From: Ignavibacteria bacterium | Lineage (GTDB): Bacteria > Bacteroidota > Ignavibacteria > Tepidaquicellales > Tepidaquicellaceae | NCBI GenBank assembly: GCA_028714695.1 | Contig: JAQTLX010000002.1 | Location: 1 to 64,000 of the forward strand | Direction: 5' to 3' | Length of the DNA stretch: 64,000 nucleotides | Shown: piece by piece, positions 49,232 to 64,000 of the stretch | Layout: each line of letters begins with the position of its first letter | Numbering within the stretch: the stretch's first letter is position 1 | The notes under the pieces: generated by a model | What the model was told of the DNA's origin: nothing | Database searches by the model: none | Seen by the model: the letters and a program-made list of their open reading frames with translations, nothing else | Made by a program: the position numbers and the translations under genes

Positions 49232-52200
49232 ATGGAATTAGAATCTATTGAAAATAATATTCTTGCTCCAAAAACATCTCAACGAATTAAATTTCGAGGG
49301 CTATTCATTGCAATAATTTCTTTAATAATATTAACGCTTATAGTTCTTGGCTATGTTAATGTAAATAAAACGAGAGAAAAACAGTACAACAGTGCATCTG
49401 AAAACCTCAGAATTATCTCAGATAATAAAGTTGACAGAATCAATAAATGGAGAAATAGTATTATTCTGGGTTCCCGCAAATTTATGAATGACATTGTCAT
49501 TCAAAGGTTTCTTAACGATTGGTTCAGCAGCGAAATAAAAAAAGATGACGATACATTTATTAAAAAATGGCTGACTAATTTTCTGGATTCGGGGGAAGTG
49601 AAAGAGTTCGCTGTCTTTTCGCCGGAAAGGAAATGTCTTGTATTCTCTGATAAGCCGGAGAATTATTCGGAGAAGGAAAGAATATCGGCATTTAATAAAT
49701 GCCTGCAGGGAAAAGATGTAGTTATGTCGGATTTGTATTTTGAAAATGAATATGATAGTGCCAGAATATCTGTTTTTATTCCGGTTATAAATACAAATTC
49801 ATTGAAGAGAATTGTGTCAGGTGTTATCATGCTGGAAATTAATCCCTATATCGAATTATTCCCTATAATTGAATTTTGGCCGTTGAAATCGAATCTCTCA
49901 CAATCCGTACTTATTCGCAGAGATTCAGCGAATGTACTTTACATTGTGAATCGATTATCAGAAAAAAATTCTGTTCTAAAACTGAAATCCCCTCTAAATG
50001 ATACAGACTTTGTCTCTGTTAAAGCGGTTAACGGCCGTACAGGTATCTTCGAAGGAAAAGACTACAATAAAAGAGAAGTGATATCATCATCAGGGAACAT
50101 ACAAGGTACAAATTGGATTTTACTGTCAAGTATAGACAAGGAAGAACTTGATAACCAGGTTGCAAAAACAACAAATATCATTCTTGGATTTATTTTTCTG
50201 ATAATTTTATTTTTCGTTCTTCTGTTAGTACTGGTTCTGAGGCAATACAGATTATCGAAATACAGTGAACTATTAAAAATAGAAAAGGAAAAGAATATTC
50301 AATTCGAAAGATTAAATACTTTGCTGCAAAATGCAAATGACAGCATATTATTGCTGAGCAGCGATGGACTCGTGATTGACGTTAATGATAAAGCCGTAGA
50401 AGTGTATGGTTACTCCAAGAAAGAATTTTCGAAATTGAACATAAGAGATTTAAGGGCTCCTGAAGAAAAAGCATCTTTTAATTCAGCATACTTCGATTTG
50501 AAGAAAAAAAGGTCGCTTGTTATCGAAACAATTCATATCTCAAAAACCGGAAGAACATTTCCGGTTGAAGCCAGTGCATCAATAATAACCTTCGATGGAG
50601 AAGACTATATACAGAATATTGTCAGAGATATAAGTTATAGAAAAGAAACTGATAAGAAATTAAGAGAATCTGAAAATATGTTTAAATCTGCATTTGATTA
50701 TGCGAATGATGCTATGTTCATAATGGACCATGATATAATACTTGATGCAAACAGAAATGCGGAGATACTTTTCGGAATCCCGAAGAAAGACATGATTGGC
50801 AAAAGACCATTTAATTTATCTCCGCAATATCAGGAGGGAGGAAAGGCATCCAAAGAAAAAGCGCTGGAGTCCATCAGTAAAGCAGAGTCCGGCATTCCGC
50901 AGTTCTTTGAGTGGATTCACAGAAATTCAGACGGTGTTGATTTCAATACTGAAGTAAGCCTTAATACTATAATCCTTGAAAACAAAAATCTTATTTTTGC
51001 AGTAGTACGCGACATTACTTTCAGAAAATATGCGGAAAATACACTGCGTGAAAGAGAAAACAGACTTAATCTGGTACTTGAAGGTGCCGAAATAGGATAT
51101 TATGATATGAACATGATTACCGGTGAAGTGATTACCAACGAAAGATGTTATAAGATGCTTGGTTATAATGCAAATGAAATTGTCCGCAGCAGAAAATGGT
51201 GGAGGGATATTGTTCATCCCGATGATGCAATAAATTCGCAAATCATATGGGAAGAATATTTATCCGGAAAAAGAGATATATATGAAGTTGAAGTAAGATT
51301 GAGAAAAAAAGACGGTACCTGGTTATGGGTGCTTGATAAAGGTAAGTTTTTCGAAGTAACGGAAGACGGTAAACCTATAAGAGTTGCCGGTACACATCTT
51401 GATATATCCGCCCTGAAATATTCCGAAGAGGCAATGAGAATTGCAAAAGAGGCAGCAGAAGAAGCCAGCCGCCTGAAATCAAATTTCCTTGCAAATATGT
51501 CTCATGAACTCAGAACCCCGATGACAGGTATAATCGGTTTTTCCGAAATGCTTTTCACGGAACTGGAGGATTCAGAACATAAAGAAATGGCAGAGATGAT
51601 TTTAAAAGGCGGTAAAAGATTAACACAGACTCTGAATTCAATACTCGACCTATCAAGGATTGAAGCAAATCAGATTGAAGTGAAAAAAAATGAATGCAAT
51701 ATAATACCTCTGGTTGAAAATTCAGTGAAGTTATATCAGCAGGCTGCCAAATTGAAGGGATTGAATATCGAAATCAACAGTGATAAAGATGAGTTATTTT
51801 GCATTCTGGATGAAAAAATATTCGAAGATATTCTGAATAATTTAATTAAAAACGCACTGACATATACCGAAAGAGGAAATATTAGCATATCCGTAAGTAC
51901 CATCATTAAAGGTGAAATCAGTTTTGCAAAAATTTCGGTAAAGGATACAGGGATTGGAATTCCCGAAGAACTCCATCAGCAGATTTTTGCTCCTTTCCGT
52001 CAGGTCAGTGAAGGATTAAACAGGAAATATGAAGGAACAGGTCTCGGACTCACATTGACAAAAAAATTAATCGAACTCATGGATGGCAAAATTCATGTCA
52101 AGAGTAAAGTAGGGGAGGGTTCGGAATTTATAGTCGAAATACCTTTATCAACAAAGAAAACCGAAAAAATGTTAAATTCTATTCCTGCCGATTCAGTTTT

Positions 52201-52573
52201 ACCGAAAGCATTGTTCGTTGAAGATGAATATGAGAATTTTGAACTGATAAAGATTCTTCTCAAGCCTTATTTGAATATAGAAAATGCAGTAACCGGATAT
52301 GATGCACTTGAAATGATTAAAAGTAATAATTACGCAATCATATTTATGGATATAGGACTTAAGGGAATTGACGGAATGCAGACTACAAAAGAAATAAGGA
52401 AAATGGACAGATATAAAAACATACCGATTATCGCTATTACTGCTTTCGCAATGACGGGCGATAAAGAAAGAATTCTTGAAAGCGGCTGTGACGAATATCT
52501 GCCTAAGCCTTTTAAAAAAGAAGCACTATTTACAATTTTAAAAAAATATATTAATTTGAATTTGAAAAGTTAA
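49232..52573 (+). CDS. Hybrid sensor histidine kinase with three PAS domains and a receiver
   Basis: A 1113-residue membrane kinase. Transmembrane helices at about residues 28-48 and 312-333 flank a periplasmic sensor of about 260 residues (Cache-like by layout). Then follow PAS1 (about 360-465), PAS2 (about 478-598) and PAS3 (about 605-728, with KDGTWLWVLDKGKF and a PAC end). HisKA carries His758 in NMSHELRTPMTGIIGFSE, the HATPase has N-, G1- and G2-like boxes (DTGIGIPEE, GTGLGLTL), and the C-terminal receiver has the phospho-acceptor Asp1040 in IFMDIGLKG. It probably feeds the receiver-only protein encoded 10 bases downstream. Confidence 0.92.
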   Translation: MELESIENNILAPKTSQRIKFRGLFIAIISLIILTLIVLGYVNVNKTREKQYNSASENLRIISDNKVDRINKWRNSIILGSRKFMNDIVIQRFLNDWFSSEIKKDDDTFIKKWLTNFLDSGEVKEFAVFSPERKCLVFSDKPENYSEKERISAFNKCLQGKDVVMSDLYFENEYDSARISVFIPVINTNSLKRIVSGVIMLEINPYIELFPIIEFWPLKSNLSQSVLIRRDSANVLYIVNRLSEKNSVLKLKSPLNDTDFVSVKAVNGRTGIFEGKDYNKREVISSSGNIQGTNWILLSSIDKEELDNQVAKTTNIILGFIFLIILFFVLLLVLVLRQYRLSKYSELLKIEKEKNIQFERLNTLLQNANDSILLLSSDGLVIDVNDKAVEVYGYSKKEFSKLNIRDLRAPEEKASFNSAYFDLKKKRSLVIETIHISKTGRTFPVEASASIITFDGEDYIQNIVRDISYRKETDKKLRESENMFKSAFDYANDAMFIMDHDIILDANRNAEILFGIPKKDMIGKRPFNLSPQYQEGGKASKEKALESISKAESGIPQFFEWIHRNSDGVDFNTEVSLNTIILENKNLIFAVVRDITFRKYAENTLRERENRLNLVLEGAEIGYYDMNMITGEVITNERCYKMLGYNANEIVRSRKWWRDIVHPDDAINSQIIWEEYLSGKRDIYEVEVRLRKKDGTWLWVLDKGKFFEVTEDGKPIRVAGTHLDISALKYSEEAMRIAKEAAEEASRLKSNFLANMSHELRTPMTGIIGFSEMLFTELEDSEHKEMAEMILKGGKRLTQTLNSILDLSRIEANQIEVKKNECNIIPLVENSVKLYQQAAKLKGLNIEINSDKDELFCILDEKIFEDILNNLIKNALTYTERGNISISVSTIIKGEISFAKISVKDTGIGIPEELHQQIFAPFRQVSEGLNRKYEGTGLGLTLTKKLIELMDGKIHVKSKVGEGSEFIVEIPLSTKKTEKMLNSIPADSVLPKALFVEDEYENFELIKILLKPYLNIENAVTGYDALEMIKSNNYAIIFMDIGLKGIDGMQTTKEIRKMDRYKNIPIIAITAFAMTGDKERILESGCDEYLPKPFKKEALFTILKKYINLNLKS

Positions 52574-53022: not shown

Positions 53023-54792
53023 TTGGGAAGAAAATCTACATATACGATTGTTGTTATTTACTTCATATTTGGTGTTTTATGGATACTAATTACCGATTAC
53101 TTTCTGAAAACTATTGTCCCATCTCTGGGTATTTTTGCATATATATCCTCATTTAAAGGTATATTTTTTGTCGTGCTTTCCACTCTTTTTATATTTTTAC
53201 TGTTAAAAAGATTTTTTTATAAGGAAATCACCGAAATTGAAAACACAGACAAAAAAATTCTTGATAAATTACAACTTGAACTTGAAGATAACAAAAGAAT
53301 TAAGGAAAAATTATTGAAATATCAGGTGAATCTAAATGCTCTGATAGAAAGTAATCTTCAATCATTTGTGCTTCTCGATAAGGATTCTAATATCATTCTA
53401 TTTAACAAGTCTGCCGAGTTTTATATCGGTAAGGTGACAGGCGTTAATATAAAGAAAGATATGAATCTTAGAGAAATTTTACCTGTCGATATGAAAGAGT
53501 CATTTACTCTTAATTTCAATAAAGCAATCAACAATATTCCTGCTCGTGTAGAAAAGAAATTTAATATAGACGGACGTGAACTCTGGGTTAATTTTATTTA
53601 TAATCCGGCTTTTAATAAGGCAAATGAGATATTCGGTGTGATTTTTACGGGTATCGAAAGCACCGAACGGATGAATATGATGAATGAACTGAAAAAAACT
53701 GTTGAAATATATGAAGAACTCATAAAAGCAACTCCCGATGCAGTATCGATAACTAACAAACAAGGAAAACTGGAGTACATTTCTCCCGTAGCACTTGAAC
53801 TGCTTCGAATTGATGATATTAATAAGGCAGTCGACCAGCCCTGCATAAAGTGGTTCGCTGAAGAAGAATATGAAAATCTGCAAAGCAACATTGATTTAAT
53901 AATTAATCATAAACACCAAACAAAAGGGTCTGTCTATAAAATGAGGCGCGACGATGGTTCTTATTTTATAGCAGAATTCAATTCGAGTCCGATTGAGAAT
54001 ATTGACGGCAATCCGACTAGTTTTATTTCAACTTTCAGGGATATAACGCAAAGAATTGAGTCCGAAGAAAAATTAAGAGTATATTCGAATGAACTCAAAG
54101 AACTTAATGCAAGTAAAGACAGGTTCTTTTCAATCGTTGCTCATGACCTTAGGAATCCGCTTCAGGGATTGCTTGGTTTTTCCAGCCTGTTGAACGATAA
54201 TTTCAGCGATCTGACGATAGATGAAGTTAAAGAATATATCGGCTACATATATCAGTCTGCTAAGAAAATGCACTCTCTTACAAATAATCTTCTGCAATGG
54301 TCGAGAATAAAAACAGGAAAAATCGATTATAGTCCGCTTAATATTAATGTATATAATGCCGTCAAACATAATATTGACCTGCTGAAACCAAGCGCCTTTA
54401 AAAAGGAAATAAACATAGAAACGGAAATCGAATCGGATATTAATATCTACGCCGACAGGAAAATGTTCGATTCGATTTTGCAGAATATTTTAAGCAATGC
54501 CATAAAATTTTCATATCCTAAGAACAGAATTGATATAAGCGCGGAAATAAATAAAAATTTTGTCCGCCTTAGCATCAGAGACTACGGTTTGGGCATCAAA
54601 AAAGAAAACACAAGCAAGTTATTCTCAATCGATACTCATTTCACAACGACAGGCACGCAGGATGAAGAAGGGACAGGGCTCGGGCTGATACTCTGCAAGG
54701 AAATGGTTGATAAGCACGGCGGAGAAATAACTTTTGAAAGCGAATATAAAAAAGGCAGTGTCTTCAGTTTCACACTGCCCAAAGGTACATAA
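53023..54792 (+). CDS. PAS-containing sensor histidine kinase
   Basis: A 589-residue kinase starting at TTG. Two N-terminal transmembrane helices (about residues 5-27 and 38-62) lie close together with almost no periplasmic loop. Two PAS domains follow (about 98-220 and 225-345, the second ending in a PAC motif with SFISTFRDITQR). HisKA holds His374 in FSIVAHDLRNPLQGLLGFSS, and the HATPase_c domain ends with EGTGLGLILCKEMVDKHGG. There is no receiver. It may share the receiver-only regulator encoded just upstream. Input is probably cytoplasmic via the PAS domains. Confidence 0.9.
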   Translation: MGRKSTYTIVVIYFIFGVLWILITDYFLKTIVPSLGIFAYISSFKGIFFVVLSTLFIFLLLKRFFYKEITEIENTDKKILDKLQLELEDNKRIKEKLLKYQVNLNALIESNLQSFVLLDKDSNIILFNKSAEFYIGKVTGVNIKKDMNLREILPVDMKESFTLNFNKAINNIPARVEKKFNIDGRELWVNFIYNPAFNKANEIFGVIFTGIESTERMNMMNELKKTVEIYEELIKATPDAVSITNKQGKLEYISPVALELLRIDDINKAVDQPCIKWFAEEEYENLQSNIDLIINHKHQTKGSVYKMRRDDGSYFIAEFNSSPIENIDGNPTSFISTFRDITQRIESEEKLRVYSNELKELNASKDRFFSIVAHDLRNPLQGLLGFSSLLNDNFSDLTIDEVKEYIGYIYQSAKKMHSLTNNLLQWSRIKTGKIDYSPLNINVYNAVKHNIDLLKPSAFKKEINIETEIESDINIYADRKMFDSILQNILSNAIKFSYPKNRIDISAEINKNFVRLSIRDYGLGIKKENTSKLFSIDTHFTTTGTQDEEGTGLGLILCKEMVDKHGGEITFESEYKKGSVFSFTLPKGT

Positions 54793-54806: not shown

Positions 54807-55346
54807 CTAGAGATTCTTTAAAACGATATTAAGCCAGTTTATAACTGTATTCCTTGTCTTTGTCTTCTTTATCATTTTGTAATCTTTCCAGATTTTTTTC
54901 TTTCCCTCATATCCGATTCTTTCTCTTAAATTTTCTTCAAGTTGCTCAATCTGGTATTCTCTTAACTTTTCCATATCTGTCACATCCCTGTTCATTTCCC
55001 TGAGTTTGAGATTGCTTAAACGATTATTGAGAAAATTTTTATCTTTGTGAATTACGCTTATATTATCAGGATTGTAATATCTGAACGCTGAAATAATCAA
55101 ATTTTGTACTGGGTAATTTCTTTTTATTCCGTTCTTTGTAATATAAACCCTGAGATATCTGGAATTAGGAGATAAGAACTGTGTCAATTGCTGTATGTGC
55201 CCGTATTTGTTCCTTACGTAAACCCTGCCTTTTTTGTCAGCAAGGTAATTTCCGTAATCCGGAATCTTTCTTAAACTTGTCCTGGAATATCTTCCCGTAG
55301 AAGTGTCCCAGACATTATTCAGACGAATGTATTTTGAGGCTGACAT
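54807..55346 (-). CDS. HNH/NUMOD4-type nuclease-like protein of phage origin
   Basis: About 179 residues from ATG at 55346 (MSASKYIRLNNVW), 5 bases after the upstream gene; the open frame reaches further only by overlapping that gene. The segment PDYGNYLADKKGRVYVR resembles NUMOD4, followed by an HNH-like region with VQNLIISAF, ISVIHKDKNFLNNRLSNLKL, the pattern of homing-type HNH nucleases (His followed by D/N-rich loop and NNRxxNL). The C-terminal 70 residues are charged and helical. It pairs with the phage recombination-type gene upstream and is convergent with the kinase. Confidence 0.65.
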   Translation of the reverse strand: MSASKYIRLNNVWDTSTGRYSRTSLRKIPDYGNYLADKKGRVYVRNKYGHIQQLTQFLSPNSRYLRVYITKNGIKRNYPVQNLIISAFRYYNPDNISVIHKDKNFLNNRLSNLKLREMNRDVTDMEKLREYQIEQLEENLRERIGYEGKKKIWKDYKMIKKTKTRNTVINWLNIVLKNL

Positions 55347-55351
55347 GATTT

Positions 55352-55906
55352 TTAATTTTGATTGAAAATATCGTATAAACCGGATGCCATTAATACAGCA
55401 CCTACAAATGCTCTCTTCTGGGCTGTCTTTTGAATGTAGTTCTTCATACCGATTATATTTGAACCGCATATTTTTTCATACCATAACCACTTTCCGTTCC
55501 TATTTACCCATTTACCGTCTCCGGTCCGAAGTTTATTCTTATATTCATCTTTTGTTATCTGATTTATGTCGCACTGAATAAAACGGTCTTTGAAGCATTC
55601 CTCTAAACTGTTTGAACTACCTTCGCTAATTCCTGTAATAATACCTTCATTGTTGCGTATTATACACCGGTAAGTAAAATCCAGAAATTCTTTTTCCCTG
55701 TCGGTAACACTGCTTACACATATCAGGGATTCGATTTGTAATTTAAGACGGCTCCTTATTTTTTCGGCTCCCGATCTGAGAAGTATCGGTCTGCTTTTTG
55801 ATTTCAAAAATGCAAAATCTTTTCCCGGTACAAGCGCTCTCAAAAGAGTTTGCTCTTTGCAGCCGCCAGGAATTTTAATTTCGGAATTGTTTTTGTTTTC
55901 TTTCAT
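55352..55906 (-). CDS. Phage-type DNA recombination/single-strand annealing-associated protein
   Basis: A 184-residue protein preceded by a Shine-Dalgarno-like GGAGAAA. The pattern GKDFAFLKSKSRPILLRSGAEKI, a Lys/Arg-rich loop, DFTYRCIIRNNEGIITG and a C-terminal NYIQKTAQKRAFVGAVLMASG (split) with DIF matches a family of phage proteins next to RecT/ERF annealing proteins, which typically end KMAxKRAxVDAxLxATGxSDIFxQD. Function in the family is unproven; single-strand DNA handling is inferred. Its promoter region contains two inverted repeats (55952-55975 and 55975-56036). Confidence 0.65.
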   Translation of the reverse strand: MKENKNNSEIKIPGGCKEQTLLRALVPGKDFAFLKSKSRPILLRSGAEKIRSRLKLQIESLICVSSVTDREKEFLDFTYRCIIRNNEGIITGISEGSSNSLEECFKDRFIQCDINQITKDEYKNKLRTGDGKWVNRNGKWLWYEKICGSNIIGMKNYIQKTAQKRAFVGAVLMASGLYDIFNQN

Positions 55907-55975: not shown

Positions 55976-56036
55976 ATGCTATCATTAACTGATAATAATT
56001 ATTTCCTTAGAATAATTATTAGGCTGACAGCATAGC
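55975..56036. repeat. Long imperfect inverted repeat
   Basis: Arms of about 28 bases: TATGCTATCA ... AATAATTATT on the left, and AATAATTATT ... TGACAGCATA on the right, separated by about 7 bases. Copies of the palindrome AATAATTATT lie at 55994-56003 and 56011-56020. It lies in the divergent region between the minus-strand phage-type gene and the first sigma-54 unit, and could be an operator region, a recombination site or a mobile-element end. Confidence 0.6.
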
Positions 56037-56049
56037 AGAAAATCAAAAG

Positions 56050-56096
56050 ATAGTAGAAGTACAATAAGTGATTTTTTATGATAGTAGATGCACTAT
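56050..56096 (+). promoter_or_regulatory. Paired dyad sites upstream of sigma-54 promoter 1 (candidate enhancer)
   Basis: Two copies of an ATAGT-N6-ACTAT-type dyad: 56050-56065 (ATAGT...ACAAT) and 56081-56096 (ATAGT...ACTAT, perfect). Start-to-start spacing is 31 bp, close to three helical turns. The second ends 61 bases before the -24 element, the usual distance range for an NtrC-type activator. The same motif occurs in pairs before the two other sigma-54-like promoters. Confidence 0.6.
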
Positions 56097-56156: not shown

Positions 56157-56173
56157 TTGGCACGCTAATTGAT
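56157..56173 (+). promoter_or_regulatory. Sigma-54 (-24/-12) promoter 1
   Basis: TTGGCACG-CTAA-TTGAT against the consensus YTGGCACG-N4-TTGCW; GG and the -12 element are separated by the required 10 bases, with C to A as the only mismatch in the core. Start of transcription would be near 56184, ahead of the small membrane-peptide gene. Confidence 0.7.
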
Positions 56174-56212
56174 ATTATAAGAGTAACTAAAATTTAATCA
56201 AGGGAGAAGATA

Positions 56213-56308
56213 ATGGATCAAGACATCAAGACAAAGTACGTAAATCCTTACACAATCGTATTAGCAATTCTGTTTATATTCTTAAACGTTGCGATGTTTG
56301 CTAAATAA
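56213..56308 (+). CDS. 31-residue single-pass membrane peptide
   Basis: A very short but well-framed gene. It has a Shine-Dalgarno AGGGAGA 6 bases before ATG, 31 codons, TAA at 56306-56308, a sigma-54-like promoter upstream and a strong terminator downstream. The peptide is MDQDIKTKYVNPY followed by a hydrophobic segment TIVLAILFIFLNVAMFA and a final Lys: a single transmembrane helix with a polar N terminus. Possible roles include a small regulatory membrane protein or a type I toxin-like peptide. No family is recognised. It is the first of three units sharing the promoter architecture. Confidence 0.75.
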   Translation: MDQDIKTKYVNPYTIVLAILFIFLNVAMFAK

Positions 56309-56328: not shown

Positions 56329-56358
56329 ATAATAGCCGGAATGATATCCGGCTATTAT
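56329..56358 (+). terminator. Rho-independent terminator of the membrane-peptide gene
   Basis: A 12-bp stem with core AATAGCCGGA/TCCGGCTATT, a 6-base loop and CTTATTTTT after it, 20 bases past the stop. It defines the 31-codon gene as a separate transcript of about 180 bases. Confidence 0.85.
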
Positions 56359-56397: not shown

Positions 56398-56445
56398 ATA
56401 GTGGGTATACTATATTTTATTATAGTATTGTAGTATATTTATTAT
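56398..56445 (+). promoter_or_regulatory. Paired dyad sites upstream of sigma-54 promoter 2
   Basis: ATAGT-N6-ACTAT, perfect, at 56398-56413, and GTAGT-N6-ATTAT at 56430-56445. Spacing is 32 bp start to start, and the second copy ends 36 bases before the -24 element. The surrounding sequence is rich in further TATAGTAT/ATACTATA half-sites. Confidence 0.58.
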
Positions 56446-56480: not shown

Positions 56481-56497
56481 CTGGCACACCTATTGCT
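56481..56497 (+). promoter_or_regulatory. Sigma-54 (-24/-12) promoter 2
   Basis: CTGGCACA-CCTA-TTGCT: GG and GC are separated by exactly 10 bases and all strongly conserved positions match. This is the best sigma-54 match in the window. The start codon of the T9SS propeller gene is 36 bases downstream of the element, leaving a leader of about 25 bases. Confidence 0.8.
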
Positions 56498-56532: not shown

Positions 56533-58179
56533 ATGACTAAAAAGGCAATATTCTTCTTCATGACAATAGCAGCAGTATTATCTTTTAATGCAGTTTCTGC
56601 ACAATGGCTTCCCGGAAATCAAATCAACTTAGATGTTAATCCTTGCGTTACGATGGCATCAAACAACACTGTTTTCATAGCAGGAGGTCATAATATCAAT
56701 AATTCCAGAGGGGTTGTTTATAAATCGGTTGATGGGGGAATCACTTTTTCGTCGGTTAGAATGAATTCGACAATAAAAAAGATTTTTTCCATATATTCTA
56801 CAAATGAAAATACTATATATATAGGCGAAGGTAATAATGACGGGGGTCTTCTAAAGGGCGCAAAAGTATGGAAAACGACTGATAACGGATTGAACTGGAC
56901 AAATATAGTTAATCTTGGGACTAAAAATGGTTTTATCAACTTTATACTTTTTTCAAATTCCAATCCTTCTTTTGGTGTGATTCAATCGGATCCTGAATCA
57001 AATAATGGCGGTGATTTTAAATTATGGAAAACAACAAACGGAGGATTGAACTGGACTTCTTTTTCGGCACCGGATGCAAAATCAACCGGATATCAAAATT
57101 CCGGATTTGTAATAGATGCAAATTTCTTCGGTTTTGGCTTATATGATAGTTCTAAGATTGAAATTACAAGAAATGGCGGATTAAACTGGAGTATTATTAA
57201 TATTCCGTGTCTTGAAAAAACCGGCATATCCTCAATATCATTCAGCAATAATAAACTTAATGGCATCGCGGCATCCAGAGTCACGGAAAGTACAGTAGCC
57301 AGAACAACCAACGGCGGTTTAACCTGGTTTTCTCAATCAATTTCTGCAAATAAGAATACCATTTCCGGCACAGGCTTTGTAAAATATATTCCGGGAACAT
57401 CATCAATTTATTTAATGGTATCAAATTCAACGGGAACGGTAAGTTACAAATCAATTGATAATGGTGAAACATGGGAAATATTAAGTGTGCCTTCACAAAT
57501 AAAAGATATTAATGATCTGGCGGTATATTATTCCGGTTCAGGTAATGCAGGGGCATTTGCAGGTTCAAGTTCTACAGTCCCGATAAAATTAATAGATCCA
57601 ACACCGCTGCCCGTCAAACTGCAGTCATTTTCTTACTCAGTAAGCGGTCAGGACGTGAATTTAAATTGGGTCACATCGTCAGAAGTGAACAATAATGGTT
57701 TTGAAATAGAGAGAGAAAACGATGGAAATTGGTTGAAAATTGGTTTTGTAAAAGGTATTGGCAATTCAAATCAACAAAATTCGTACAAATTCTCCGATAA
57801 AAAAGTTGGCAGCGGTAAATTTTCTTACAGAATAAAACAGATAGATTATAACGGAAATTATGAGTATTTCAATTTAAATGGACAGGTAGCAATCGGAACA
57901 CCGGCACAATTTAAACTTTCTCAAAATTATCCGAATCCTTTCAATCCCGTTACTAAAATAGACTTTGAACTATCACAGGACGCATCAGTATCAATTAAAG
58001 TATATGATATGACCGGCAGGGAAGTGTCCGGTATTTTCGAAGGTACAAAAACAGCCGGATATTATACCGTTCAATTTGACGGGAGCAAATTATGCTCAGG
58101 AATCTATTATTACAGTTTAATTGCAAATTCTAATGGAATTGAGACCGTAATTACTAAGAAAATGAATTTAATAAAGTAA
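56533..58179 (+). CDS. T9SS-secreted Asp-box beta-propeller protein A
   Basis: A 548-residue exported protein with a signal peptide ending VSAQW (about residue 24). The body (about 25-355) is a propeller with Asp-box-like repeats: SVDGGITF, TTDNGLNWT, TTNGGLNWTSF, TRNGGLNWS, TTNGGLTW and SIDNGETW. A second beta domain (LPVKLQSFSYSVSGQDVNLNW, about 363-455) precedes the C-terminal sorting domain LSQNYPNPFNPVTKIDFELS, VYDMTGREV and SGIYYYSL. It is paralogous to the next gene over its whole length. It is controlled by sigma-54 promoter 2. Similar propellers bind glycans or proteins; the ligand is unknown. Confidence 0.87.
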   Translation: MTKKAIFFFMTIAAVLSFNAVSAQWLPGNQINLDVNPCVTMASNNTVFIAGGHNINNSRGVVYKSVDGGITFSSVRMNSTIKKIFSIYSTNENTIYIGEGNNDGGLLKGAKVWKTTDNGLNWTNIVNLGTKNGFINFILFSNSNPSFGVIQSDPESNNGGDFKLWKTTNGGLNWTSFSAPDAKSTGYQNSGFVIDANFFGFGLYDSSKIEITRNGGLNWSIINIPCLEKTGISSISFSNNKLNGIAASRVTESTVARTTNGGLTWFSQSISANKNTISGTGFVKYIPGTSSIYLMVSNSTGTVSYKSIDNGETWEILSVPSQIKDINDLAVYYSGSGNAGAFAGSSSTVPIKLIDPTPLPVKLQSFSYSVSGQDVNLNWVTSSEVNNNGFEIERENDGNWLKIGFVKGIGNSNQQNSYKFSDKKVGSGKFSYRIKQIDYNGNYEYFNLNGQVAIGTPAQFKLSQNYPNPFNPVTKIDFELSQDASVSIKVYDMTGREVSGIFEGTKTAGYYTVQFDGSKLCSGIYYYSLIANSNGIETVITKKMNLIK

Positions 58180-58201: not shown

Positions 58202-58237
58202 GTAGTATAAAAACTCTTATAACAGTATGATGACTAT
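58202..58237 (+). promoter_or_regulatory. Paired dyad sites upstream of sigma-54 promoter 3
   Basis: GTAGT-N6-ACTCT at 58202-58217 and ACAGT-N6-ACTAT at 58222-58237, each with one or two departures from ATAGT-N6-ACTAT. Spacing is 20 bp (about two helical turns), and the second ends 48 bases before the -24 element. Confidence 0.5.
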
Positions 58238-58284: not shown

Positions 58285-58301
58285 ATGGCACAATTTTTGT
58301 A
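58285..58301 (+). promoter_or_regulatory. Sigma-54 (-24/-12) promoter 3
   Basis: ATGGCACA-ATTT-TTGTA: the -24 TGGCAC is intact and spacing to the -12 element is right, with C to T at the -12 cytosine. It lies 21 bases before the start codon of the second propeller gene. Confidence 0.6.
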
Positions 58302-58322: not shown

Positions 58323-60065
58323 ATGAGAAAAAATTTAATAAATATAATAATGAAATCACAAGGTACAAAAATCGGAAAATATGCAGTTGTTGTAACTTTA
58401 ATGCTGGTGTTGACTGCTAACTTATCTTTTGGACAATGGGCACCATCCGGTTCAGCCAATTTAAACAATATAGGTTCATGGCCGAGTGTTTCTGTTGTTA
58501 ACGATAATTTGGTATTTGTTGTTGGCGGAACAGCCGGTTACGGACCCGTCATTTATAGATCAACAAACGGCGGCGCGAATTTTACTGAACTTCCAAGAAA
58601 CGGAATAACAACTTCAGGAAGATTTTTCTCATGCGTATGGGGTAAAGATGCGAATACAATATTTGTAGGCGATGGTGCACCATCAGGTGACGGTACAGTA
58701 GCAGATTCAAAATTTTATAAAACCACCAACGGAGGCACAAACTGGACTGTGATTGGACATAGCGGCAGCGGTGTAACCGGATTTTTTAACGGTATCGTAT
58801 TTTCAAGATCAAATCCGCTTGTTGGATTTGCAAATTGTGATCCGAGCGGAACGACAGGACATTTTTTAATGTGGAAAACAACAAACGGCGGTGTAAACTG
58901 GACGAGTTTCACATTTACCGCTCCAAGCGCTTACGGTGCACAAAACTCTGTATTCTGTATCGATGCAAATTTCTTTGGGTTCGGCTTAAACGTTGCTAAT
59001 GCACGTGTTGCAATAACAACGAACGGCGGTACAAACTTCAATTATTATTCGCTGCAGGGTGCAACAAGTTCACAGGGATTTGTTTCTACTGTTACTTTCA
59101 ACGACGACAAAATTCATGGATATGCGGCAGTAAGTTCAACTAACAATAATATCTGGCAGACAACAAACGGCGGACTGACATGGAATGTTCTTGATGTAAC
59201 CGGAGTTCCAAACAATGTTTCAGGACAGGCAAACATAAAATACGTATCAGGTACAAATTCAGCGTTCTATGTTATTTCGAACACGAATATAACATACAGT
59301 TTCAGAATAGAAAATAACGGCGCTGTATTTACACCTTATACAAGTTCGACATCTGCAGTAAACATAATGCATATTGATGCATATTACAGCGGAGCAAAGG
59401 TAAACGGCAATGCTTCGGTTTACACTATTTCTCCTGCGGGCAGTGTATATAAACTTCAGGATTCACCTCTTCCTGTTGAAATGGCGTCATTTACTTACTC
59501 AACATCAGGAAGAAATGTCAATCTGAAATGGATTACATCGATGGAACAAAATAATGCAGGATTTGAAGTTTACAGAATAAATGACGGTCTCGATAAAAAC
59601 ACAATTTCAAACTGGACAAAAGTCGGTTTCGTACAGGGCAAAGGTACTGTAAACGGCAACACTGAATATAATTTTACCGACAATGGTTTGAATACGGGAA
59701 AATATGATTACAGACTTAAACAAATAGATTATAACGGAAATTTCCAATTTTACAATCTTAACGGATTGGTAAACATCGGAACACCGAGCAAGATAAGCCT
59801 CGGTCAGAATTATCCGAATCCTTTTAATCCTGTAACAACAATCGGATATGAAATTCCTCAGGATTCAAAAGTAACAATGAAGGTATACGATATAACCGGA
59901 AAACAAATTACATCGCTTGTAAATGAATCTCAGACAGCGGGTTATCACACAGTGAAATTCGATGCATCGGGATTCTCAAGCGGAATGTATTTCTATAAAA
60001 TATTTGTAAGCGGTGCTAACGGAGTAAACACCGAAATTACAAAAACAATGAGTGTCGTGAAGTAA
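58323..60065 (+). CDS. T9SS-secreted Asp-box beta-propeller protein B
   Basis: A 580-residue paralogue of the product of 56533-58179. The signal peptide is long (positively charged start, hydrophobic run ending NLSFGQW about residue 39); an internal ATG at 58350 is an alternative start. Asp-box-like repeats include STNGGANF, TTNGGTNWT, TTNGGVNWTSF, TTNGGTNF and TTNGGLTW. The second domain starts LPVEMASFTYSTSGRNVNLKW, and the sorting domain reads LGQNYPNPFNPVTTIGYEIP, VYDITGKQITSLVNE and SSGMYFYKIFVSG. Promoter 3 and a downstream terminator make it its own unit. Confidence 0.87.
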   Translation: MRKNLINIIMKSQGTKIGKYAVVVTLMLVLTANLSFGQWAPSGSANLNNIGSWPSVSVVNDNLVFVVGGTAGYGPVIYRSTNGGANFTELPRNGITTSGRFFSCVWGKDANTIFVGDGAPSGDGTVADSKFYKTTNGGTNWTVIGHSGSGVTGFFNGIVFSRSNPLVGFANCDPSGTTGHFLMWKTTNGGVNWTSFTFTAPSAYGAQNSVFCIDANFFGFGLNVANARVAITTNGGTNFNYYSLQGATSSQGFVSTVTFNDDKIHGYAAVSSTNNNIWQTTNGGLTWNVLDVTGVPNNVSGQANIKYVSGTNSAFYVISNTNITYSFRIENNGAVFTPYTSSTSAVNIMHIDAYYSGAKVNGNASVYTISPAGSVYKLQDSPLPVEMASFTYSTSGRNVNLKWITSMEQNNAGFEVYRINDGLDKNTISNWTKVGFVQGKGTVNGNTEYNFTDNGLNTGKYDYRLKQIDYNGNFQFYNLNGLVNIGTPSKISLGQNYPNPFNPVTTIGYEIPQDSKVTMKVYDITGKQITSLVNESQTAGYHTVKFDASGFSSGMYFYKIFVSGANGVNTEITKTMSVVK

Positions 60066-60803: not shown

Positions 60804-61244
60804 TCAATTTAGCACACTCTTTCTCAGTGTTTCCTGATCTTTGACCTCTATAAATTGAACGTGTCCCAATTCCCAGTTGAGGACCGTTAAGCCTTCATCC
60901 GTGAAAATCTTACGCAAATAATCATAATTCCCTTTATATGAAAACTCTCCGTCGATATAAAAAGCAATGTCGGCGGCGATACCGAAATGATGCATTCCGT
61001 TTTTTCTGATTTTACTTTTACCTGATTTGTAATACTCCGACTGCAGATTATTGCTTCTGTAAGTCTCGACAATATAAACATCATGCGAGGGATATTTTTC
61101 GTTGTATTTTCCGAAACATAAAATAAGTTTATCCAGAAAATCCGGAAACAACAAATTTAAGTCGTTCACGGGTTTTGTAGAATCAAATTCCTTTGATTTC
61201 TTTATGACATTGTCATAATGCTCTTTTAATTTATCATAATCCAT
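60804..61244 (-). CDS. M15-family peptidase, probable phage endolysin
   Basis: A 146-residue soluble D-Ala-D-Ala-type/L-Ala-D-Glu peptidase. The zinc-site motifs are MHHFGIAADI (about residues 84-93; His86 and Asp92 of HxxGxAxD) and the downstream GHVQF (about 127-131), with a catalytic glutamate in NWELGH. YIVETYRSNNLQSEYY is the typical N-terminal R-S segment. Size fits a phage lysis enzyme, which cleaves peptidoglycan cross-links at cell lysis. It starts 1 base after the preceding membrane-protein gene. Confidence 0.85.
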   Translation of the reverse strand: MDYDKLKEHYDNVIKKSKEFDSTKPVNDLNLLFPDFLDKLILCFGKYNEKYPSHDVYIVETYRSNNLQSEYYKSGKSKIRKNGMHHFGIAADIAFYIDGEFSYKGNYDYLRKIFTDEGLTVLNWELGHVQFIEVKDQETLRKSVLN

Positions 61245-61245
61245 T

Positions 61246-61851
61246 TTATAAAAATTTAAGTTTTAATGAAACTGACATGAAGAATTTATTTTTCTCATTT
61301 CCGTAGCCAAATCCTGCTATTATAAAAATCTTATCCTTGTATGAAACCCCGGTTTCTGAAATTATTTCATAATTGAATTTGAGTTTCTGCTGAGGATATA
61401 ACTTTATTGATACATCGGGTCTACAGAAATTAAAATTTCTGCTTTTTATGATGATATTCTCCTTAACGGGAACGAGAGTGAAGTCATTTCCGAGGTTATC
61501 GAATTTATATTCACTGACTATTGTATCAAATATATTAACTGTTTTCACATTCAGATTCCTTCCCGATTTTTCCAGTCGTATCGGCAGATCGTACTTCGTA
61601 ATTTTTTCGATAAAGACAGTATCCGTTTTCTGCACGTATATTTTTTGCGGTGTCAAATGATTGTTCGCAAGTTTATCGATGAACCTGAATACGGTATCGT
61701 GACTGATTTCGGATTCGTACTTTCTTAATATATTCGTATCTCCGATTTCAATTCTATTGTCATTGTATTTATTTTTCACAGACATGAAAACCAGCAGACC
61801 AATACCGATTAAGAAAATAAGTGATAGAATTATTTTGCACCAATTATTCAT
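61246..61851 (-). CDS. Membrane-anchored hypothetical protein, possible spanin-like lysis accessory
   Basis: A 201-residue protein with one N-terminal transmembrane helix (about residues 7-25, IILSLIFLIGIGLLVFMSV) and the rest predicted outside the cytoplasm, ending in an aromatic beta stretch (FFMSVSLKLKFL). No family is recognised. Its position between a holin-like gene and an endolysin gene, where phages often encode Rz-type spanins, suggests a lysis or envelope role by context only. Confidence 0.65.
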   Translation of the reverse strand: MNNWCKIILSLIFLIGIGLLVFMSVKNKYNDNRIEIGDTNILRKYESEISHDTVFRFIDKLANNHLTPQKIYVQKTDTVFIEKITKYDLPIRLEKSGRNLNVKTVNIFDTIVSEYKFDNLGNDFTLVPVKENIIIKSRNFNFCRPDVSIKLYPQQKLKFNYEIISETGVSYKDKIFIIAGFGYGNEKNKFFMSVSLKLKFL

Positions 61852-61870
61852 TTTACTTTCTCCTTTTCAT

Positions 61871-62119
61871 TTACTGTTCCGTAGCCCGTTCTTTGCCGGT
61901 CGAATTTAGTTCTGCAAATTTTTGGGCTGCCTTCCCGCCGAAACCGAAGCCGAGCAATGCGGCGCTCAGGTAAATAAATTCATGAAGATATATATCTTCA
62001 TATCTCATAAATCCCATGACAAGAACGGCAAACGCTGCGATTAAGCCCGCAATTACGGTAAGAAAGGAAATTAATCTCATCATGGAATATTCTGTGTTTT
62101 CAAGAAAAAATTTTAGCAT
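61871..62119 (-). CDS. Small two-helix membrane protein, holin-like
   Basis: 82 residues from ATG at 62119 (MLKFFLENTEYSMMRLISFL), 10 bases after the connector gene. The longer frame to 62158 would overlap that gene. Two hydrophobic helices (about residues 13-35 and 41-59) are joined by RYEDIYLHE, with a charged C terminus ending KERATEQ. Size, topology and place just upstream of an endolysin fit a phage holin; no family signature is seen. It resembles small 'EYSxMRL' membrane proteins of phages and prophages. Confidence 0.65.
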   Translation of the reverse strand: MLKFFLENTEYSMMRLISFLTVIAGLIAAFAVLVMGFMRYEDIYLHEFIYLSAALLGFGFGGKAAQKFAELNSTGKERATEQ

Positions 62120-62129
62120 ATATGTTATT

Positions 62130-62756
62130 TTAAATTTTAACCGATAAATATTTTTCAAGTATGGAATCGTAATTTTCGTCTTTATATGTGAACGAATACT
62201 TAGTCTCGCTGCCTGAGTCTTTTTTGAGTATGTCCATGCGTTCCAGACCGATTCTCCGAGTCAGATTTTCATCGCCGCAATACTGAAAACTTTTTAGAAA
62301 TGATTCTGCTGACATCATCAATGCAACCCATTTCAAATCAGGAGGTAATTCGTTTATCGGGTCATTTGCATTTTCGATATATCCTGCGAAATATTTTATT
62401 CTGATATTGGAGTTTCCTGCAGGGAGTGTGAATCCGTTTAATAGGATAATTTTACCGCTGTCCTGTTCGCAGAATAGGTTTTCTTCAACCGGTTTTCCTC
62501 CGAACAGATCTGCGCTGAAAGTACCCGTTTCTTCTCTTACCATAACGGAATCTACTTTCTCTACTGGATAGTTCGATAATCTTATAATATTCTCGTTCTT
62601 GCCGCTGAGTATTTCATATATTCTCGAATAACTTAGTTTCCTTTTGCATAGATTGTTTATTCTGGCAGTTGTCATATCAATGATTTTGCGAAGGAAATTA
62701 TCCTGGGAAGTATCCTTTATCCTGAGGAAATATTTTAAATCATCTATATTTATCAT
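62130..62756 (-). CDS. Phage head-tail connector protein, gp6-like
   Basis: A 208-residue helical/beta protein. The N-terminal IDDLKYFLRIKDTSQDNFLRKI with a second helix TTARINNLCKR (about residues 3-40) is the pattern of gp6-like/QLRG head-tail adaptors of HK97-type phages. It follows the capsid gene on the same strand, as connectors normally do. The C-terminal extension is longer than the usual 90-110 residues of gp6, so a fused or lineage-specific domain is present. Confidence 0.75.
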   Translation of the reverse strand: MINIDDLKYFLRIKDTSQDNFLRKIIDMTTARINNLCKRKLSYSRIYEILSGKNENIIRLSNYPVEKVDSVMVREETGTFSADLFGGKPVEENLFCEQDSGKIILLNGFTLPAGNSNIRIKYFAGYIENANDPINELPPDLKWVALMMSAESFLKSFQYCGDENLTRRIGLERMDILKKDSGSETKYSFTYKDENYDSILEKYLSVKI

Positions 62757-62786
62757 TTTTATGTGTTTTAAATTCTAAATTTTATA

Positions 62787-62809
62787 AAGAGGGAGGAATC
62801 CTCCCTCTT
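62787..62809 (-). terminator. Hairpin between capsid and connector genes
   Basis: A 10-bp stem AAGAGGGAGG/CCTCCCTCTT with a 3-base loop, 35 bases after the capsid stop. The minus-strand T-tract is short (TTTATA), so it may attenuate rather than fully end transcription, setting high capsid and lower downstream expression. Confidence 0.6.
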
Positions 62810-62843
62810 ATTTGTTTATTCATTGCGGTATATTCTTCAAAAA

Positions 62844-63986
62844 CTATTCTACCGCCGTTTTCAGAACGGAAAGCGCAATCGGGTATGTGAATTTCACATC
62901 GAATGAAGCATTGAAATTCAAACCTACGAGTCCGGATTGCCACAGATTGACGTTCTGAGTTCCCATCTGAACCGTAGCATCTTTGCTGAAATCTATCGTC
63001 AGATTATTTCTTAATCCGATTGCCATATAACTCAAATCACCGAATGCTAAAAATGCCCTGTCTGTTTCGGATTCGCTCAATGAGTAACAGGCATCCGATA
63101 ATTCGACCGGATATCCTTCAAGTATCATTTCTTTCCTGTCCTGCGGGCTGAGAACGTACTCGGAATTAGGCGCGTATTTCAGGGATTTTATCAATCCGTA
63201 AATGGTTCTGTTCATGTACCATTTTGAATTTTTCAGAGTATGCGATGGTACTGAAGAAACCGCTTCGATAAGATCATCATATGTTAAACTGTTGAAATCG
63301 GTGCCTGTTATTTCCATAACTTTTGCGCCGATGCCGTTTGTGAGCAATCCGTCGATATTTCCCGGAATACCCCTGAATGCGGCAGTATCTATTGTGTATG
63401 ACATAATCTGAGCGGCAAGATTTGTGACGAATCCCATGACATCAAATGCTTCATCTTCAAGCAGTTGCTTCGAGAACAGGACTATAAAACCGCCGTCCTT
63501 TCTTCTAAGAATTACCTGTGCGAAAGACGGGTTCGAAACGGGTTTTACCGTGCCTTCACTTACAAATGACCATGTAGGAAGCGTGTCGAGTTTAGGTATC
63601 ACAAGTTCGCGTCTTGTCATATTGTATATCGTTGCGTTTCGCATCGCTACACCGCCGGATTTTACGAGTGACATGATTCTGTCGTTCCATTCCTGAGGGA
63701 CCAAATAACCTCCGGCAGTGCCTGTAGATTCATTCAGGAAATCCCTGTAATTCACGGGCAGTAATTCCGGTTTACCATAAACGATTGACTTAAGAAAATT
63801 CCTTCCGTCCTGCACGGTCTTGCTTTCTTTATTAGCCGTATCTCTGAATCCTTCAGAGGGAATTTGCGTCGAAGTCAGATTTCCGATGTCCGCTATCTCC
63901 TTCTTTACAATTTCAGCGGCAACTTTTCTTGAAATTGCTTCAACTTTGTTTTCGTCGATTAATTCGACATTTGTGTTTTCATCCAT
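62844..63986 (-). CDS. HK97-fold phage major capsid protein
   Basis: A 380-residue capsid protein. An N-terminal helical scaffold-like segment of about 70 residues (ENKVEAISRKVAAEIVKKEI) precedes the capsid core, which begins FLNESTGTAGGYLVPQEWNDRI (split, about residues 85-106), the classic HK97 transition. Core landmarks are ATIYNMTRRELVIPKLD, FSKQLLEDEAFDV, AFRGIPGNIDGLLTNG and the P-domain/C-terminal AFGDLSYMAIGLRNNLTID. It would form the head shell. The usual upstream partners (protease, portal, terminase) would lie beyond 64,000 on this strand. Confidence 0.9.
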   Translation of the reverse strand: MDENTNVELIDENKVEAISRKVAAEIVKKEIADIGNLTSTQIPSEGFRDTANKESKTVQDGRNFLKSIVYGKPELLPVNYRDFLNESTGTAGGYLVPQEWNDRIMSLVKSGGVAMRNATIYNMTRRELVIPKLDTLPTWSFVSEGTVKPVSNPSFAQVILRRKDGGFIVLFSKQLLEDEAFDVMGFVTNLAAQIMSYTIDTAAFRGIPGNIDGLLTNGIGAKVMEITGTDFNSLTYDDLIEAVSSVPSHTLKNSKWYMNRTIYGLIKSLKYAPNSEYVLSPQDRKEMILEGYPVELSDACYSLSESETDRAFLAFGDLSYMAIGLRNNLTIDFSKDATVQMGTQNVNLWQSGLVGLNFNASFDVKFTYPIALSVLKTAVE

Positions 63987-64000
63987 TTTGTTTTTCCTTT

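Follow-up and report, generated by a model that had tools for sequence, protein, structure and literature searches.

KdpF and CydX are small accessory subunits of membrane complexes. MgrB is described as a small single-transmembrane (TM) regulator of the sensor kinase PhoQ, 47 aa long and with a periplasmic region (PMC8404706), and E. coli YohP (27 aa) and DinQ as membrane-active peptides (PMC12719787, PMC3567139). In Flavobacterium psychrophilum, sigma-54 promoters drive the gliding operon remF-sprF as well as genes for chaperones and for exported proteins whose function is unknown (PMC9723704), so an association of sigma-54 with surface genes or genes linked to type IX secretion (T9SS) has a precedent. 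The passages on that regulon mention no small membrane peptide, and the words 'small protein' occur 0 times in the text. Literature searches, largely confined to journals outside subscription, gave no title or abstract on a regulon that joins sigma-54, T9SS cargo and tiny membrane peptides when directed at sigma-54, T9SS, gliding or Ignavibacteria, and nothing for sigma-54 with small membrane proteins.

Here we describe a 31-codon gene in a 64,000-nucleotide stretch of DNA (the window; contig C2, positions 1–64000, of the 3.85 Mb genome G000), which we compared with the same-genus relatives G001–G004. The 31-codon ATG-TAA frame, sigma-54 element, AGGGAGA word and 12-bp hairpin named in the original prediction are all present at this locus (Table 1). 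There are 186 ATG open reading frames (ORFs) of 25–45 aa within the 64-kb window, nine of which have a TM-like stretch (a 19-residue Kyte–Doolittle mean of at least 1.8), two of these nine also having an RBS-like word; because short frames are common in the window, the ORF by itself is weak evidence. It rises above chance because promoter, RBS and frame are conserved in four genomes, each with a T9SS propeller as the next gene, and because the codon positions carry a pattern of selection on protein.

Table 1. Features of the peptide and propeller genes in the window.
Feature	Position	Strand	Basis
Activator-like palindrome ATAGT-AGATGC-ACTAT, AGT 75 nt upstream of the -24 element	56081–56096	+	AGT-N6-ACT in 10/10 promoters; genome scan
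Peptide-gene sigma-54 element (-24/-12), TGGCACGCTAATTG	56158–56171	+	Conserved at 4/4 orthologous loci; RpoN in genome
Shine-Dalgarno-like AGGGAGA	56201–56207	+	GGGAGA retained at 4/4 loci; leader not folded around AGGGAGA
Single-TM peptide gene, 31 codons ATG-TAA, MDQDIKTKYVNPYTIVLAILFIFLNVAMFAK	56213–56308	+	Homologues in G001, G002, G003; codon-level purifying selection; AlphaFold2 helices
Terminator-like 12-pair hairpin with T-rich tail	56329–56358	+	Folding compared with shuffles
AGT-N6-ACT palindrome of propeller 1	56400–56411	+	Promoter comparison and genome scan
Sigma-54 element of propeller 1 (TGGCACACCTATTG)	56482–56495	+	Sigma-54 pattern scan
Propeller 1, 548 aa, Sortilin/BNR-like repeats, T9SS type A sorting tail	56533–58179	+	Orthologue in G003
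Two AGT-N6-ACT palindromes of propeller 2, 20 bp apart (58204–58215, 58224–58235)	58204–58235	+	Promoter comparison and genome scan
Sigma-54 element of propeller 2 (TGGCACAATTTTTG)	58286–58299	+	Sigma-54 pattern scan
Propeller 2, 580-aa T9SS-tailed surface protein	58323–60065	+	66–79% identical in G001–G003

The original prediction had proposed a search of related genomes and a comparison of synonymous with nonsynonymous change as checks on the gene, and both favour it. A tblastn-type search of 59 genomes found the peptide in four of the five same-genus genomes, its own included (G000–G003), and gave no match elsewhere; G004 gave no match, though its genome is fragmented. The three homologues are 58, 55 and 50% identical to the window peptide, and M1, N11, P12, Y13, L20, F23, N25 and A27 are invariant in all four. 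The 28 nucleotide differences between the G001 and G002 genes fall 5/1/22 by codon position (pN 0.10, synonymous change saturated), and those between G000 and G001 and between G000 and G002 fall 9/5/24 and 9/6/15, with a dN/dS of 0.14 for the latter pair. Overall, pN is 0.10–0.23 among G000, G001 and G002, with synonymous change saturated or nearly so, and 0.29–0.41 relative to the more distant G003 (gapped alignment). When random substitution was simulated (20,000 trials per pair), the frame stayed open with identity as high as observed in 0, 0.5 and 0% of trials for three pairs. The codon-level evidence thus identifies a real protein gene that is translated and under selection, and with its homologues a conserved, unannotated micro-protein gene.

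A profile of the four peptides, run against 391 genomes of the class, matched 52 genomes at E 0.1 or better, but only the four genomes of the genus scored below 1e-16 and the next best was 2e-4. Fifteen of the weaker loci were inspected; fourteen lacked an upstream sigma-54-like site, the other had one that looked like chance, and none combined promoter, RBS and a 31-codon frame, so no convincing copy was found beyond the genus among the 391 genomes. A search of the genome_contigs collection returned two loci, in LaPlata bin-1896 and Lac Pavin MAG contigs (Ignavibacteriae; matching G002 and G003). The four genomes that carry the peptide are those of related lake-type bacteria in which it has been kept as a protein.

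The peptide has a Kyte–Doolittle hydropathy of 2.21, indicating a single TM helix, and in the AlphaFold2 model (mean pLDDT 79, pTM 0.36) helices are predicted at residues 3–9 and 12–30, the short N-terminal one being separated from the TM helix by a break at N-P; both agree with the one clear TM helix that had been proposed. The model predicts a helix and says nothing about partners. The peptide is single-copy in G000 and is named by none of the family libraries. A match to the light-harvesting antenna subunit (PF00556; E 0.031–0.045, 14–15 bits against a cut-off of 23) in two of the three homologues scanned was rejected; a pigment-binding His is the mark of such subunits, and there is no His in any of the four peptides.

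The promoter and Shine-Dalgarno are conserved at all four loci, and hairpins also lie 3' of the gene at the other three; the original claim that the gene has a promoter and a hairpin terminator of its own is thus supported at sequence level. In the window the hairpin has an MFE z-score of -5.44, with 0 of 200 shuffles folding as well, and suggests that the peptide has a separate transcript, its amount set apart from that of the propellers. Because the leaders fold no better than shuffles (z-scores of +1.37, +0.30, +1.62 and -0.58 for the four loci), the RBS of the peptide gene is taken to be open. Further upstream, positions 56035–56060 resemble a CRISPR direct repeat in Rfam, probably by chance, since the match scores 25.8 bits and the gathering score is 39.

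Each of the four peptide loci has the sequence TGGCA[CT]G-N4-TTG, with TGG located 52–67 nt before the ATG. RpoN is encoded in the G000 genome (Sigma54_DBD match, E 2.6e-51), and genome-wide the sigma-54 pattern occurs at 16 sites, compared with 6 for a reversed control. About ten strong sigma-54 activators (enhancer-binding proteins) are encoded in G000, none of them inside the window, and in Pfam searches neither the adjacent kinases nor the receiver showed a domain typical of such activators. Elsewhere in G000 (C10:78.9–80.2 kb, L113), three close sigma-54-like sites each precede an exported protein of 109–123 aa.

The peptide and propeller promoters have a palindrome in common. In a search of the 200 bases upstream of the sigma-54 sites, AGT-N6-ACT is present in all ten promoters (those of the peptide in four genomes, propeller 1 in two and propeller 2 in four), and lies 75–77 nt from the TGG of the -24 element in the four peptide promoters and 82–84 nt from it in the six propeller promoters; the propeller 2 promoters have a second copy 20 bp nearer. 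Markov-shuffled sequences contain it in at most four of ten promoters (mean 0.35) and in all ten in 0 of 2000 shuffles, although this count is post hoc since the palindrome was first noticed by eye in the tested regions, and a scan of the 59 genomes is the fairer measure. Variants of the AGT-N-ACTAT form with other spacers (0–5, 7–15) occur in no more than one region each. When the upstream regions were searched for 11-mers without bias, no word exceeded the level of shuffled sequence.

The scan for the palindrome together with a sigma-54 site gave 55 matches in the 29 genomes of the family, of which 13 are the promoters where the palindrome was discovered, while the reversed control gave 10; the corresponding numbers were 4 and 8 in 15 sister-family genomes, and 4 and 5 in the remaining 15 of the 59. 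Flanking positions that were outside the search pattern are also conserved, with R at -2 (0.98) and Y at +13 (0.88) placed symmetrically about the palindrome. AGT-N6-ACT is absent from 14 of 14 hsp20-type sigma-54 promoters, a control made up of 13 promoters of the family and one of the sister family (L117); L005, from G000 itself, gave no row under the stricter pattern, and L178 had no sigma-54 site in this check, the searched stretch extending beyond the start of the locus. The ACTAT form occurs in 2 of 22 other sigma-54 promoters. Small heat-shock genes of hsp20 type lie directly behind sigma-54 sites in many relatives (L005, L085, L088, L092–L096, L102, L103, L107–L109, L111 and L117).

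These patterns are those of a putative activator site upstream of all four peptide promoters. Co-regulation of the peptide with the propellers, which the original prediction had raised as a hint, is supported at the sequence level by the common palindrome at its fixed spacing, and because this activator-like element is common to all ten promoters the link is stronger than could then be seen. The palindrome as a candidate tie between the peptide and T9SS surface proteins is newly recognised here.

Among the 51 distinct promoters in the family, 16 precede an ORF with a T9SS tail, or 17 if propeller 1 is included, its tail being beyond the end of the locus; for comparison, the YPNPFN tail is present on 5 of 61 listed window ORFs of at least 110 aa. 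Six precede a single-TM peptide of at most 42 aa: four of the window type, one copy of a second peptide family (G003:C46, below) and a 40-aa peptide in G022:C11. The remaining promoters are followed by small soluble proteins, other exported proteins or a receiver-domain protein, or are unclear, and five have no ORF of at least 28 aa in reach. The labels of these ORFs are mechanical, and the 38-aa ORF of L104 is probably in the wrong frame. Judged by these predicted ORFs, enrichment of T9SS cargo behind palindrome promoters is clear, though not exclusive. Two small soluble families, of 69–71 aa (L261, L265, L271) and 107 aa (L263, L264), are likewise preceded by the palindrome and a sigma-54 site in G003 and G004, the former also in G009.

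Propellers 1 and 2 match the sorting domain PF18962 at 39.7 and 40.4 bits (cut-off 27), with TIGR04183 also above its cut-off, and a T9SS propeller is the next gene downstream of the peptide in all four genomes. In G003 the order is hybrid kinase, receiver protein, peptide, propeller 1 and propeller 2. In G000 the kinase-receiver pair is separated from the peptide by a further kinase and by two phage-like genes on the minus strand, and propeller 2 is followed by endolysin-like, connector and capsid genes; the neighbouring kinases of the window occupy 49232–52573 and 53023–54792. G001 and G002 have the peptide and propeller 2, without propeller 1, in the same phage-like surroundings, with a kinase fragment, an HNH gene and a phage-like protein upstream of the peptide in G002; the capsid is 83–84% identical in these two genomes. 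Because propellers accompany the peptide in four of four genomes and phage-like genes in three of four, the peptide tracks the propellers, not the phage-like genes. The minus-strand phage-like genes (window 54807–55906 and 60804–64000, and on to about 77.8 kb of G000:C2, L125) are interleaved with plus-strand surface genes and comprise HNH, phrog_10048, endolysin-like, connector, protease-capsid fusion, portal and terminase genes, and G001 and G002 have part of the set in the corresponding position; inspection by eye recognised no tail genes, and the set is possibly a domesticated element.

We propose that a single enhancer-binding activator would switch on a surface programme that includes the secreted propellers and the 31-residue peptide. 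The peptide would sit in the inner membrane, with a short polar N-terminus, the conserved NPY break and one TM helix, and would touch, through its helix, a membrane machine of the programme and modulate it in an accessory or feedback role; this machine would most likely be either the inner-membrane complex of the T9SS or a sensor kinase, for which the kinase adjacent in G003 is a plausible candidate if MgrB is taken as the model. A modulator function in envelope sensing or secretion is suggested by regulon membership and gene neighbourhood, and the full reading, in which the product of the gene is an inner-membrane modulator made with a sigma-54 surface programme, is one that we judge could equally prove right or wrong.

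Several alternative explanations can be weighed against such a modulator. The peptide could instead belong permanently to the structure of one membrane complex, such as the T9SS motor or a respiratory complex, in the manner of KdpF or CydX, and its small size, its single TM helix bearing invariant residues and its production together with secreted cargo would suit this. However, it was found in one genus only, whereas 48 of 59 relatives have matches to the T9SS protein propeller 2 or to its tail (E 1e-40 or better), and this narrow spread speaks against a core part of the T9SS. Nor does its gene share an operon with a subunit of any complex, and we regard an accessory subunit of any kind as unlikely. 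It is quite improbable that the peptide is a membrane-active stress peptide that alters membrane potential or fluidity and slows the cell, even though its size and single TM helix match YohP and DinQ, as it is co-regulated with secreted proteins and not with damage genes. Type I toxins commonly have a structured leader hiding the RBS, and by the shuffle z-scores none of the four peptide loci has such a leader. Nor did a search with three consensus patterns find an antisense promoter-like site in the transcribed stretch of any of the four loci, although a missing consensus is weak evidence; the one sigma-70-like site, on the minus strand at 56201–56174, points away from the peptide gene. The original suggestion of a type I toxin therefore loses ground to the unstructured leader with its open RBS, the single copy in its own genome, the sigma-54 control and the absence of an antisense promoter-like site; the leader, the single copy and the lack of such a site count against a stress peptide of the YohP or DinQ sort as well.

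The position of the peptide between phage-like genes in G000, G001 and G002 raises the idea of a holin or other phage cargo belonging to the surrounding cluster (HNH, phrog_10048, endolysin-like, connector and capsid). We consider this very improbable and a phage origin largely refuted by the G003 locus, where the peptide accompanies both propellers and directly follows the receiver gene, nothing phage-like intervening; no capsid homologue was found in the G003 or G004 genomes at E 1e-10, and the peptide has no PHROG match and no relative in the viral_contigs search. That the product is a small RNA, with the open frame as a by-product, is scarcely credible: a promoter of its own and a strong hairpin would fit, but the third-position excess, the saturated synonymous change and the simulations of random change all speak for coding, and no Rfam family matched at its gathering score. 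The original prediction had taken loss of the frame in relatives as the sign of a small RNA, and the frame is conserved; the codon-position pattern rules out a small RNA as the sole product.

Single-TM peptides behind sigma-54 sites form a second family in these bacteria, about 30–38 aa long with a D-x-S-F-F start and G-F near the end, at G000:C2:141780–141890, G000:C9:126575–126840, L122, L203 and L204–L212. It has 26 matches in 10 of the 391 class genomes (E 0.001), with tandem copies, five of them in G003:C46, and several loci lie after a REC-kinase and an NtrC-like activator and before a receiver protein. Like the window peptide, these peptides have one TM helix and a sigma-54 site mostly 51–65 nt before the ATG of the first copy; unlike it, they occur in tandem and in several loci adjoin the NtrC-like activator and receiver. 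A test for a common origin of the two families found none (hhalign probability 0.9%, no profile similarity). We tentatively suggest, as a possibility short of an even chance, that a dedicated activator recognising RTAGT-N6-ACTAY runs a sigma-54 surface programme in the family, and that within it adhesin-like proteins secreted by the T9SS have time and again been joined by tiny single-TM peptides, unrelated to one another, which would modulate secretion or the sensor; the literature searched describes no such pairing.

Proteins this short escape annotation, and beyond the model bacteria few small membrane proteins are known in a clear regulatory setting. This lineage is known from metagenome assemblies; codon evolution settles the coding status of the peptide, and the regulon can be read from the DNA. 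If the proposed modulator is real, micro-proteins become connected with both sigma-54 control and type IX secretion, with the peptide and propeller as a testable pair. By analogy with MgrB (PMC8404706), it would be a small membrane protein with a TM region for contact, under the control of a programme that it possibly tunes; unlike MgrB, whose partner is PhoQ, it has 31 aa, almost no C-terminal tail and apparent sigma-54 control. With YohP (PMC12719787) the window peptide has in common a length of 27–31 aa, one TM helix and conditional expression, and it differs in its apparent co-regulation with secreted surface proteins.
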